Source: Buchnera aphidicola (Sipha maydis)
Lineage (GTDB): Bacteria; Pseudomonadota; Gammaproteobacteria; Enterobacterales; Enterobacteriaceae
Reading direction: 5' to 3'
NCBI RefSeq assembly: GCF_024029855.1
Contig: NZ_CP097205.1
Span: 124,001 to 188,000 of the forward strand
DNA: 64,000 nt
Position 1 is the first letter of the stretch; every line of letters begins with the position of its first letter. A program made the position numbers and the translations under genes. Below the pieces are notes generated by a model. It did no database searches. It was not told the DNA's origin and worked only from the letters and a program-made list of their open reading frames with translations. This document shows, piece by piece, positions 37,772 through 51,147 of this stretch.

Positions 37772-38089
37772 AAAAAAAAAAAAAAAAACTAAAAAAATAG
37801 AATACCAAACGAAATTATATTAAAAAATAAAATTTATTAAATTTTACTCATCAAATTCTAATCTTTTTTCCCTCTTTTTCGTATTTATAAAAATTTTATT
37901 TTATTATTTATAAAATTTCTTAAAATAAAAAAATTTCATAAAATTTAAAAAAAGAGAGAAAAAATTAATTTCTAATACACTTCGTGTTCTTTATTTTTTA
38001 TATTTTTTTATAGAAATAAAAAAATTTAATAGTTCAATCCATAAAAATTTTATTCTAAAAAAAAAGATATTTCATTGTAGAAATACCTA
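37772..38089. other. Spacer after tRNA-Ser with complementary C/T and G/A arms
   Basis: 318 bases without a gene. It starts with the rest of an A18 run. TTTTTTCCCTCTTTTT (37864-37879) and AAAAAGAGAGAAAAAA (37949-37964) are complementary at 15 of 16 positions across 69 bases. A small hairpin ACAC-TTC-GTGT at 37977-37987 is followed by a T-rich stretch and could end transcription from tRNA-Ser. No coding homology was seen. Confidence 0.5.
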
Positions 38090-38962
38090 TTATATAGTCC
38101 AAAAAAGATTGATTTTAAAAGAAGGATTAGGGAAAGTCTTTTCTTGTGGATTATTATTAATAAATAATTTTTTTAGTTCGATGCTAGCTGAAGCATATTT
38201 GTTAAATTTATATTCTATACCACATGCTAAAACTGGATGAAAACCTTGGCGCTGAAATTCTACTTTTTGAACAAAATTATTATACTTTGTGATATTTTCA
38301 ACTATATTTACAGATACACCACAACGAGCATATAAATCTACATGATATCTCGTAGGACATGAAAATTTTGTTGATAAAGAAAAAATATTATTAAACTTTT
38401 TCTTTACAGGTTCAAAAAAAATTTTTTTCTGTAAAAGAAAATTTTTTCTATTTTTTGTGACAGTTTCTGAATTAGACTGTTGAGATTTTTTTTCTGGAGA
38501 AGGAATTTTTGCATCAACAGATTTTGGTATATTTTTATGAATATTATTTTGGTCTACATCGTCTTTTGCAAATTCTTTTTCTATGTCATCATCATTTTTT
38601 TTATTCATGTTTCTGACATATTTTTTTTGTTCTTCTAAACTATTTACATTTACATCATTTGATTTATTCTTAATATTCTTATCTTCATGTACTTCATTTC
38701 GCCCTTCATAACTCAACTCTATTGAAATACATGAGTTATATCTATGATCCATAAAAAGTCTAGATATTTGTTCCTGAGAATAACTTTTTGTATCTGTATT
38801 CTTTTTTTTTATTAAAATATTATTAATAGGATTAAAAATTTTTTTTTCAATATTACATTGTGCTACATAACGAAATAAATGATCAGGATTTTTTTCAGAT
38901 GCATGTGCTACAGAACAAAAAGTACCTAATAAAAATGATAATGCAAGATATTTTTTTTTCAT
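38090..38962 (-). CDS. ompA: Divergent OmpA-type outer-membrane barrel with long inserted loop
   Basis: A signal peptide (MKKKYLALSFLLGTFCSVAHA, cut after A21) precedes a sequence that aligns piecewise with the OmpA eight-strand barrel. Examples are YNSCISIELSYEGR (76-88, E. coli NPYVGFEMGYDWLGR), HVDLYARCGVSV (207-218, LDIYTRLGGMVW), GFHPVLACGIEYKFNKYASASIEL (240-263, [24 protein letters not shown]) and NPSFKINLFW near the end. Between the fourth and fifth predicted strands about 100 charged, asparagine-rich residues (88-185) are inserted. The peptidoglycan-binding OmpA domain is absent. The position between tRNA-Ser and flagellar/rne genes fits Buchnera ompA. The assignment is by eye and is the least certain of the named genes. 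Confidence 0.7.
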   Translation of the reverse strand: MKKKYLALSFLLGTFCSVAHASEKNPDHLFRYVAQCNIEKKIFNPINNILIKKKNTDTKSYSQEQISRLFMDHRYNSCISIELSYEGRNEVHEDKNIKNKSNDVNVNSLEEQKKYVRNMNKKNDDDIEKEFAKDDVDQNNIHKNIPKSVDAKIPSPEKKSQQSNSETVTKNRKNFLLQKKIFFEPVKKKFNNIFSLSTKFSCPTRYHVDLYARCGVSVNIVENITKYNNFVQKVEFQRQGFHPVLACGIEYKFNKYASASIELKKLFINNNPQEKTFPNPSFKINLFWTI

Positions 38963-39643: not shown

Positions 39644-40336
39644 ATGAATATAATTCCATTTAAATGTATTTTAAACAATTTAAATACCATTAACTGTTCT
39701 GAAAACCATCAGAAAAAAGAAATTTTTTCAACAAACAAAATAAATAGTAATTTTTTTAATTTCTTTATAGAAAGACTTGAAAAAAAAAAATTATATGGAA
39801 AACAAAAAAACAAAATTTCTTTTCAAAACCCTCAAATTCAATTTAATAAAAATAATACTCCACTTTTTTCTTATCAAGAAATTACAACAAAGCAAGAAAA
39901 TAATTCACGTACTTTTAATTATACACTCTTTAAAGATAAAGATGTTTTAGTTAAAATTCCAAAAATAATTTTAGAAAAATCACCTATTATTATAGGAGCA
40001 AGCTTTCCAGTAGATGTAGAATCAGTACGTGTAATTATTTCAGATCATCAAAGAAACATTATTTTTCAAAAAGATCTTGGTCCAGCTAAAAAAGGTGAAA
40101 ATATATTTAAAATTAATTCTCAAGAAATTGATAAAAAATATTTTAGTAAAGATAATAAAAATCCAAAAACATATCATTTGAGTATTGTAGCAAAAACAAG
40201 TACTACTATTGTGCCAAATATAATTTTTACAAAAGGACATGTCAAAGATGTATTTATTTCTTCTGCCAATGATGTGTTTTTAAACATTGATGGATTAGGA
40301 ATATTTTCATTATTAGATATTATTCGAATTTTATAA
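39644..40336 (+). CDS. flgD: Flagellar hook-capping protein FlgD, solitary
   Basis: FlgD is exported through the flagellar apparatus and caps the growing hook. 230 residues equal E. coli FlgD (231). The C-terminal two-thirds aligns along its length: VESVRVIISDHQRNIIFQKDLG (E. coli ADKVTATITDKNGAVVRTIDIG), TYHLSIVAKTS (SYNVAISASNG), GHVKDVFISS, and the final LNIDGLGIFSLLDIIRIL (LDLGTYGTTTLDEVRQII). The N-terminus retains NFFNFFIERLEKK where E. coli has SFLTLLVAQLKNQ. The frame is intact and preceded by TAGG. No other flagellar gene lies beside it; the next genes are an OmpA-like gene and rne. Its role without hook genes in cis is unknown. Confidence 0.88.
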   Translation: MNIIPFKCILNNLNTINCSENHQKKEIFSTNKINSNFFNFFIERLEKKKLYGKQKNKISFQNPQIQFNKNNTPLFSYQEITTKQENNSRTFNYTLFKDKDVLVKIPKIILEKSPIIIGASFPVDVESVRVIISDHQRNIIFQKDLGPAKKGENIFKINSQEIDKKYFSKDNKNPKTYHLSIVAKTSTTIVPNIIFTKGHVKDVFISSANDVFLNIDGLGIFSLLDIIRIL

Positions 40337-40625: not shown

Positions 40626-41855
40626 TTATTTTCGGAATAAAAATAATTTTTTAATTATTTTTTTTTTTACTATGTATGATAAATTATAAATTTTTCTTCT
40701 CGAAATTTCTAATAATCCAAATTTCGAAATTTTTCCTATGATAATTCTAGAAAATTCTTTTTTAGCATGAAATTTAAAATTTTTTTCTACTATTTTTTTA
40801 TTTATTTTTTTTCTCATAGAAATAAAATCTATTATTATAATTCCTCCAATATCTTTTAATCGGATTTGTCTAATTATTTCAGGAATAATGAAAAAATTTA
40901 TATTAAAAGCTGTATTTTCAAGCGTATTAAAATTCTTAAGAGAAGAAGAATTAATATCTATTACAGTCAAAGCTTCAGTAAAATCAATATATAAAGATAT
41001 GTTAGATGATAATTTTATTTTTTGATCAAAAATAGCAGAAATTTTATTTTGCAAATTGTAATAATGGAAAATAGAAATATTTTTTTTAAATAATTTTATC
41101 TTATTAAGATAATCTAAAAGATTAAATAAAATAAGAAAACTTTTTATTCGTATAAAAAAAATGTTATTATCAATAATAATTTGAGATATTTTATAACAAA
41201 TTATTTCTCTTAGTAAATTTATAAAAATATTATCTATTTGCAAGCTTTTTAATAATAAAATATTTTTTCTATTTTTGCATATTAAATTCCATTTTTTTAT
41301 TTGTATCGTACAATCTTTTTGTAATTCTTGTATTAACTTTCCAGAAGCAGATGTACGCAAAATTATTCCCATATTTTTTGGAATTTTTAATAACTTTATT
41401 AAAAATTTTAATTTTTTACGTTTTTCTCCTTGAATTTTATTAGATATTTTTCTTATATGAGGTTTATTTATAATTAAAATAACATATACTCCTAAAAGAG
41501 TAATAAATGTAGTTAATAATCCTCCTTTATTTTTTTTTTCTAATTTTAATATTTGAATTAATATTTTTTTTTTATTTTTTATAAAATAATTTTTATCTAA
41601 TAAAAAAAAATTTATTTTTATATTTGAAAATAATTTTTTAGAAATATTTTTAAAAGGTAATAAACCTAATTTTTTTCCTCCATAATCTACAAAAATAGCT
41701 TCTAAACTATGTGAAATTTTTTTTAAACTACATAAGTAAATATTGTTTACAGATTTGAAACTCATTTTATTTATATTAATATTGTATATTTTTTTTTTTT
41801 TTACTATAACAAAAAAAATTTCTTTTGTATTGACTTTAATAAACATTTTTTTCAT
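40626..41855 (-). CDS. rne: Ribonuclease E reduced to its large catalytic domain
   Basis: Endoribonuclease of mRNA decay and rRNA/tRNA processing. At 409 residues it covers only about residues 1-410 of the 1061-residue E. coli enzyme. The S1 domain (about 37-120, SLEAIFVDYGGKKLGLLPF) and the 5'-sensor residues in ILRTSASG (R167, T168) are seen. The DNase I-like core has the metal aspartates D300 (VIDINSS) and D343 (IIDFISM), matching E. coli D303 and D346. It stops just after FGLLEISRR, before the CPRCxG zinc link that joins protomers, and has neither the small domain nor the degradosome scaffold. Surface segments are very divergent and isoleucine/lysine-rich. Confidence 0.92.
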   Translation of the reverse strand: MKKMFIKVNTKEIFFVIVKKKKIYNININKMSFKSVNNIYLCSLKKISHSLEAIFVDYGGKKLGLLPFKNISKKLFSNIKINFFLLDKNYFIKNKKKILIQILKLEKKNKGGLLTTFITLLGVYVILIINKPHIRKISNKIQGEKRKKLKFLIKLLKIPKNMGIILRTSASGKLIQELQKDCTIQIKKWNLICKNRKNILLLKSLQIDNIFINLLREIICYKISQIIIDNNIFFIRIKSFLILFNLLDYLNKIKLFKKNISIFHYYNLQNKISAIFDQKIKLSSNISLYIDFTEALTVIDINSSSLKNFNTLENTAFNINFFIIPEIIRQIRLKDIGGIIIIDFISMRKKINKKIVEKNFKFHAKKEFSRIIIGKISKFGLLEISRRKIYNLSYIVKKKIIKKLFLFRK

Positions 41856-49876: not shown

Positions 49877-51004
49877 CTAAAAAGTATATTTAAAACCCAT
49901 TCCAAAAGTATTTTCAGAATAATGCAAATACTCTCTATCCGGAGTATCAGAATCTTTCATAAAATTTATTTTGTAATGAAAATTAGCAATAAAATTAGGA
50001 TGCAACGTATAGTTAACAATGACATTGAAATGATTATTTAATGTTACAGGATTAGAAACAACTAAATTACGCATATAATCATATTTTGTTCCAGAAGATT
50101 TCACATATCCTAAAGATGCTTTAACTCCATTTTGAAAATCATACTGTCCAACAACTTCAAATGTGTCTAATAAGTCATATCTTACAGAATCTTTCATATA
50201 AGGAAAAGCTGATTCTTTTAAATAACCGTAAAAACCTGAAAGAGTAATATTTTGTATATTATAATTACAACCTATTGCATAAGATTTTGCCCAATGACTT
50301 GTTAAATCTGCTCTATTTCTAGAATTATCATATGGACTAAAGAAAGTTGAACCAATTATTGTTAATCCATAATCATTAACATATTTTAAAGAAGCGCCCC
50401 ATGAATCATTATATTTATTACTTAAATAATAATTTTGTCTTTGATAATGCGTCTGATGTTGAAGAGTTAAACCAAAATCTTTCATAGATCCAAAAAGTGA
50501 TTTCATTTTATAAGTTAAAACACCATCTGCACGACCAACTAAAAAATTGTTATCTTCATGTAATACTAAATTTTCCGTTTCATCAAAAAATTTTTCAGTA
50601 AACTGCTTAGAATAATGTATAACTCCATAATTTCTTCCATAATCTAATGTTCCAAACATACCTAAATCTAATCCAACATATGATAAACTAATACAATTAT
50701 CAGTTGGATGACTATAACTATTTGGATTATATCGTGTAAATTTTGGAAGATATTCAAATCTTGCATATCCTGCTACAAAAGGATTAATATAGTGTTTAGT
50801 AAATATTCCAAACTTAATATTCGAATAATTTCCTAAAGAATTTAAAATCAATGGATCACTAGTATGAGAAGTAAAGTAAAGTGGATTAATATGATAATAA
50901 AAATTTATGCGATGCCCATGTTTATAATATATCTCTCTAGCATGAACATTTCCAGAATACAAACACAAAGGAATTAATATCGCTAAAGAACGATGATTTA
51001 TCAT
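49877..51004 (-). CDS. ompF: Outer-membrane general porin
   Basis: Trimeric 16-strand porin for small solutes. The ATG at 51004 gives MINHRSLAILIPLCLYSGNVHA, a signal peptide close to those of enteric porins. A GTG four codons upstream overlaps the GGGAG ribosome binding site and is less likely. 375 residues compare with 362 for E. coli OmpF. Porin hallmarks are SYVGLDLGMFGTLDYGRNYGV near 111-131, alternating beta strands throughout and the C-terminal phenylalanine of FGMGFKYTF needed for outer-membrane insertion. OmpF and OmpC cannot be separated by eye; the position beside asnS favours ompF. It is much less lysine-rich than cytosolic neighbours. Confidence 0.92.
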   Translation of the reverse strand: MINHRSLAILIPLCLYSGNVHAREIYYKHGHRINFYYHINPLYFTSHTSDPLILNSLGNYSNIKFGIFTKHYINPFVAGYARFEYLPKFTRYNPNSYSHPTDNCISLSYVGLDLGMFGTLDYGRNYGVIHYSKQFTEKFFDETENLVLHEDNNFLVGRADGVLTYKMKSLFGSMKDFGLTLQHQTHYQRQNYYLSNKYNDSWGASLKYVNDYGLTIIGSTFFSPYDNSRNRADLTSHWAKSYAIGCNYNIQNITLSGFYGYLKESAFPYMKDSVRYDLLDTFEVVGQYDFQNGVKASLGYVKSSGTKYDYMRNLVVSNPVTLNNHFNVIVNYTLHPNFIANFHYKINFMKDSDTPDREYLHYSENTFGMGFKYTF

Positions 51005-51147
51005 GATAAATATCACTCCCTTATTGTCTTGTAAAATGTAACAAATTGAAAAAAATTTTTTTAATATTTTTTTGTTTAAAATATATATTAATATTTTTTT
51101 AAAAAAATTTCATGTTTTCAAAAAAAAAAATTTTTTTTAAAAAAATA

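Follow-up and report, generated by a model that had tools for sequence, protein, structure and literature searches.

The ompA-derived gene and its genomic setting

The window, a stretch of 64,000 nucleotides from Buchnera aphidicola (Sipha maydis), belongs to a genome of 462,390 bases in a single contig. Its reverse strand carries an ompA-derived gene that starts with an ATG codon (Table 1). The gene was compared within a genus set of 11 genomes, namely that of the window and G001-G010; one genome per species was used throughout. Among these, G007 and G008 are Buchnera of Periphyllus koelreuteriae 22 and of Periphyllus lyropictus, and G009 (locus L083) is Buchnera of Chaitophorus viminalis, with G004 and G006 as its clade-mates. 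Further genomes include those of Buchnera of Cinara confinis (G020, locus L027) and of Cinara tujafilina (G345, locus L059). Alignment A1 comprises 12 rows, the 11 genus members and G020, and A21, at the end of the signal peptide as read by eye, is the same residue in all 12.

Table 1. Features of the ompA-derived gene in the window
Feature	Position	Strand	Basis
ompA-derived gene, 290 aa + stop	38090..38962	(-)	ORF; PF01389 above cut-off; hhalign to other OmpAs
Putative signal peptide, residues 1-21 (MKKK..AHA)	38900..38962	(-)	by-eye reading
Predicted barrel strands 1-3, residues 22-87	38702..38899	(-)	A5; alternating in/out hydropathy
Enlarged loop L2, residues 88-193, 106 aa, polar, net positive	38384..38701	(-)	A5, composition, length comparison
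Tyr115, sole insert residue invariant in 11/11 genus members	38618..38620	(-)	alignment
Predicted barrel strands 4-8, residues 194-290	38093..38383	(-)	PF01389, A5, in/out hydropathy

In each of the other 10 genus genomes, the 20-kb region analysed has rsmC adjoining ompA, with spacers of 608-825 bases; rsmC likewise lies near ompA in G020. The window gene, which shares the ompA neighbourhood of related Buchnera, is an OmpA orthologue by descent. The ompA frame is intact in 11/11 genus genomes. In neutral walks of 0.3 substitutions per site, none of 200 runs was free of nonsense hits (mean 20.9); this load, together with the rsmC neighbourhood, indicates that the open frame is not due to chance.

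Other features of the surroundings were also observed. RNase E is 409 aa long in the window (40626-41855), and matches of 354-411 aa are kept in eight other relatives; within the 20-kb region of G003, the closest relative, all that is left of it is a 70-aa tblastn relic (L074 13593-13802, E 2e-5). The gene flgD (window 39644-40336) is kept in six other relatives; the 20-kb regions of three more, G004, G005 and G006, gave no flgD match, and the G009 contig ends near the flgD position. Downstream of ompA, at 37874-38089, the match to the genus OmpA profile continues past the stop codon and crosses six in-frame stops, counting that of the gene itself; either chance or a remnant of the lost C-terminal domain may account for it.

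Homology and predicted fold of the barrel

OmpA consists of an eight-strand barrel and a C-terminal domain that holds peptidoglycan. The Pfam OmpA_membrane profile (PF01389) matches residues 191-262 of the window protein with an E-value of 2.9e-5 (24.3 bits vs a cut-off of 21), and all 12 rows of A1 are matched at E 0.01 or better. When the genus profile, built from the 11 members and G020, was aligned by hhalign with a profile of 15 other OmpAs, a probability of 100 and an E-value of 6.2e-45 were obtained over 345 columns, a span that includes the C-terminal columns of those members keeping that domain. The original prediction of an OmpA barrel, which had left room for OmpA profiles failing to match, is thus supported at the level of sequence profiles. 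All eight strands can be placed in alignment A5, whose 21 rows are the 11 genus members and 10 chosen from, and not exhausting, the other fetched OmpA loci.

With the register taken from A5, the lipid-facing positions of the window strands differ in hydropathy from the inward ones by 3.38, compared to 2.50-3.64 in the other 20 rows, and this value was reached by 0 of 20,000 shuffles. Neutral walks from the G003 gene to equal strand identity (0.30) gave a mean of 1.76, and only 3 of 400 runs reached 3.38, which implies that the barrel pattern has been maintained despite residue change. The equivalents of E52, K82, R96, E128 and E140, which we take to be inward OmpA residues, are retained. Like the putative signal peptide and the eight predicted strands, they are shared with the OmpA of Enterobacteriaceae (PF01389 + PF00691).

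On the other hand, several features count against the preferred reading, in which the protein survives as an outer-membrane barrel. The equivalents of R138, K12 and G10 are missing in the window copy; R138 and K12 are residues of the Enterobacteriaceae OmpA, and the last Phe of that protein is not kept either. The frame terminates at the column of strand 8 in A5, so that the protein ends with the last barrel strand as foreseen, and the Trp two residues before the strand-8 terminus is retained. However, strand 8 closes with Ile in the window and with Phe in the other 20 of the 21 rows, so the terminal aromatic of the C-terminal assembly signal is gone.

Other searches gave the following results. 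The two-domain NCBIfam OmpA equivalog NF008071 (PRK10808) scored 26.1 bits vs a cut-off of 277. AlphaFold2, run with alignments of only two rows (window and L083), gave pLDDT values of 28.4 and 30.3. A PDB sequence search with the window protein returned one chance match (E 0.85). A contig search with the window protein alone found no relative, and with alignment A2 it found one, L083. In viral contigs scanned with the OmpA alignments, 14 loci matched the C-terminal half of the query only, and none matched the barrel. Judged by its sequence, the window gene is an OmpA orthologue cut down to the eight-strand barrel.

The enlarged loop L2, predicted to be extracellular

The insert is charged and Asn-rich; the original prediction of about 100 hydrophilic residues is borne out, and an insert is present in all 11 genus genomes. 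Its proposed start at residue 88 is confirmed, whereas the proposed end at 185 must be moved to 193, which gives 106 residues. The insert had also been placed between strands 4 and 5; in A5 it lies between strands 3 and 4, that is, in extracellular loop L2. A periplasmic insert, as expected for the 4/5 position, which corresponds to a periplasmic turn, is ruled out by this alignment. In the E. coli protein, four residues (Arg81, Lys85, Glu89 and Lys94) presumably fall in L2. In PMC10695831, these four are described as extracellular-loop residues. Alignment of the insert with L2 means that, by OmpA topology, the loop is expected to point outward, towards the host-derived membrane; of the two directions originally considered, the outward one therefore stands and the periplasmic one does not. 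From these alignments, we infer that the enlarged L2 is exposed on the outer face, on the host side.

The loop measures 95-116 residues in 10 of the 11 genus members and 263 in G005, vs 19-24 residues in each of the 10 comparison rows selected outside the genus, so the excess over a normal L2 is about 85 residues in the window. The hydrophobic fraction of the insert is below the prediction from base composition in all 11 members (0.23 vs 0.36 in the window), and the net charge is positive in every one. With G005 excluded, the coefficient of variation (CV) of insert length is 0.066 in the 10 remaining genomes (0.41 with G005), compared to 0.11, 0.23 and 0.18 for three intergenic spacers, a contrast weakened by the fact that the least variable spacer contains tRNA genes in the window.

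The insert sequence, by contrast, is barely conserved across clades. As many invariant columns as in the real inserts, where Tyr115 is the only one, occurred in 1 of 100 shuffles with 11 rows and in 3 of 100 with eight representatives; columns at 75% identity or more were not in excess, being matched by 23 of 100 and 10 of 100 shuffles, respectively. The conservation signal at Tyr115 is only suggestive.

G005 (loci L034 and L076) has the longest OmpA loop and is also the only one of the 11 genomes with no Porin_1 match, the family matching the other 10; the OmpF of the window lies at 49877-51016. OmpA may be the only porin-like protein of G005.

Loss of the C-terminal domain and probable loss of wall genes

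A search of the complete genome for PF00691, the C-terminal peptidoglycan-binding domain, gave no match at E 0.001, in agreement with the original prediction. In the genus it is present in 4 of 11 genomes, each time in the ompA frame, and absent in 7, including the window; this corresponds to 4 of the 12 rows of A1. On the best tree, which was computed from 10 neighbour proteins (3194 columns; outgroup G020, 1943 columns) and in which three internal nodes have 74-83% support, four domain losses are counted: in the window and G003, in G008, in G004, G006 and G009, and in G007. If nodes with 100% support alone are counted, there were at least two. In the four retained domains, the Asp that we take to be the diaminopimelate binder is changed in two (the sisters G001 and G002), and the Arg is kept in all four. 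It was also observed that L041 (G008), L036 (G004) and L038 (G006) have tails beyond strand 8 with no PF00691 match, and that the tails of G004 and G006 look by eye like the beginning of the G010 C-terminal domain, as if truncated.

Two wall families and one LPS family were searched, and wall loss and LPS loss are to be read on that scope. Mur_ligase_M had matches in 0 of 11 genus genomes and in 12 of 14 controls; the Transpeptidase family in 0 of 11 and 10 of 14; and LpxC in 0 of 11 and 4 of 14. These results suggest that the ligand of the C-terminal domain is probably gone in this genus. Peptidoglycan genes are described as almost entirely lost in Buchnera of Chaitophorinae by Smith 2022 (PMC9116674), whose main text has no occurrence of "ompA". 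The Omp85/BamA family is matched in 11/11 genus genomes; three of the matches contain a single in-frame stop, which is probably the terminal codon.

Elsewhere, Mur ligase matches were found in 10 of 17 other genomes tested. G227, G301, G366 and G421, which are presumably Buchnera of Aphidinae aphids, have Mur ligase matches and an OmpA of 340-350 aa ending in CL(A/S)PDRRVEI. However, G107, of the same genus, has no Mur ligase match and yet a full-length OmpA with a similar ending. This counts against the preferred reading and implies that the absence of wall genes is not always accompanied at once by domain loss. In the genus of the window, the absence of wall genes came first and domain loss followed.

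Selection on the barrel, insert and retained domain

Omega was estimated for six pairs with a codon model that takes base composition into account, the synonymous distance being taken from neighbour genes. NG86 dN/dS values (0.96-1.25 for the insert in G004/G006/G009; 1.16 for the window/G003 barrel) were rejected as inflated by AT-biased codons, and the codon model that replaced them gave overall ranges of 0.08-0.22 (barrel) and 0.09-0.94 (insert). In G004/G006/G009, omega is 0.11-0.16 for the barrel and 0.94, 0.60 and 0.67 for the insert, whose alignment is gappy in these genomes, with 37-41% identity, which can inflate omega. For G001/G002, the values are 0.13 (barrel), 0.18 (insert) and 0.60 (C-terminal domain). 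G007/G010 gave 0.08 and 0.09 for barrel and insert, respectively, rough values because dS is saturated at about 4.4. The barrel is thus constrained, while the insert is nearly neutral in the Chaitophorus viminalis clade and constrained in G001/G002, and the retained C-terminal domain of the latter is the least constrained part of the gene, as for a relic. The highest omega of all pairs is 0.94 (upper bound 1.22), and no point estimate exceeds 1, so positive (diversifying) selection on the loop is unsupported.

For window/G003, omega is 0.22 for the barrel and 0.35 for the insert, again rough with dS saturated at 4.35, whereas 14 neighbour genes range over 0.01-0.09 (OmpF 0.05), all slower than the ompA barrel. 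The OmpA barrel of the window may be sliding towards loss.

Candidate function and alternative explanations

Based on the results presented above, the gene most probably represents a stranded OmpA whose barrel survives in the outer membrane and whose flexible outer loop is kept more for its length and polarity than for its sequence. OmpA would have gained a long hydrophilic L2 in the ancestor of the genus. With peptidoglycan lost, the C-terminal domain would have been left with no ligand, decaying where kept and being deleted repeatedly. The barrel would still be inserted in the outer membrane, presumably via BamA, and could have a structural role or form a small pore. The loop would serve as a spacer or as a hydrophilic coat, the outer membrane beneath it being probably devoid of LPS. 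In G001/G002, the constraint on the insert comes close to that on the barrel, which speaks against a pure spacer, for which no such constraint would be needed.

An artefact of sequencing or assembly, or a wrong frame, is barely conceivable: long homopolymers and an AT-rich genome speak for it, but the same architecture recurs in 11 genomes, one of them also a named public record (L083), and the signal peptide and last strand share one frame. The original prediction had allowed for an insert missing in close relatives or caused by a sequencing error; its presence in all 11 genus genomes argues against both. Relaxed selection alone, which had also been suggested, would make the insert a junk sequence that a disappearing protein tolerates in one of its surface loops, and we consider this rather unlikely. 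It is favoured by the near-neutral insert of G004/G006/G009, by the speed of the window/G003 barrel relative to its neighbours, and by the loss of OmpA already recorded for Buchnera of Baizongia in PMC3246468. The suggestion fits the insert in those three genomes but not in G001/G002, and the near-constant insert length in 10/11 genomes, the depletion of hydrophobic residues and the intact frames also oppose it. The insert was lost in none of the 11 genomes, whereas the C-terminal domain was lost repeatedly; even so, stops arise more easily than in-frame internal deletions.

A host-interface protein, whose L2 would act in the symbiosome space by binding or repelling a host factor, is improbable as the main explanation. 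Its merits are the extracellular position of L2 (the residues of PMC10695831, which presumably fall in this loop), the presence of a long L2 with one invariant Tyr in all 11 members, the constrained insert of G001/G002, and two precedents: changes in the Sodalis OmpA loops alter tsetse tolerance according to PMC4553611, and a Nasuia porin is bound by host vitellogenin according to PMC7667026. By analogy with such precedents, a host-interface role of the OmpA loop is possible. Omega, however, does not exceed 1 as a point estimate in any pair and is 0.60-0.94 in G004/G006/G009, the insert sequence is hardly conserved across clades, and the Tyr signal is weak (3/100, representatives). It is similarly unlikely, though conceivable, that in Buchnera lacking wall and LPS the enlarged L2 forms the main hydrophilic surface layer towards the host-derived membrane, a protein brush replacing LPS, in which the conserved Tyr motif might offer a docking site. 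Among the matches listed in a search of open-licence PMC articles, no title concerned the enlarged loop or the domain loss in Buchnera.

Comparison with known OmpAs and implications

The window protein can be set beside several known OmpAs. Compared to the Enterobacteriaceae OmpA, in which L2 has 19 residues (L002) vs 106 here, the window protein lacks the C-terminal domain. The Buchnera comparison loci L048 (Aphis helianthi), L050 (Artemisaphis artemisicola) and L052 (Macrosiphoniella sanborni), whose hosts we take to be Aphidinae aphids, encode an orthologous barrel as in the window. Unlike the window, they have an L2 of 19-20 residues and a C-terminal half aligned to the end, and all three genomes have Mur ligase matches. 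Buchnera of Cinara (L027 and L059), on the other hand, resemble the window in their barrel-only OmpA (by eye for L059) and in having no Mur ligase matches, but their L2 is short (19 in L027; L059 by eye). Domain loss and loop growth are therefore separate events. The OmpA of Sodalis glossinidius, also an insect symbiont, has insertions in exposed loops like the window protein; its effect on host tolerance was tested there, and the likeness is drawn from its description (PMC4553611).

The finding shows a possible fate of a two-domain envelope protein after one ligand vanishes: the wall-binding half decays and is repeatedly deleted, and the barrel remains, with a long loop on its outward side. 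With a marked gene, a set of 11 genomes and the clear contrast between Aphidinae-, Cinara- and Chaitophorus-type Buchnera, one can ask how an outer membrane is held together in a symbiont with no matches to the wall and LPS families, and what part of such a symbiont is visible to its host.
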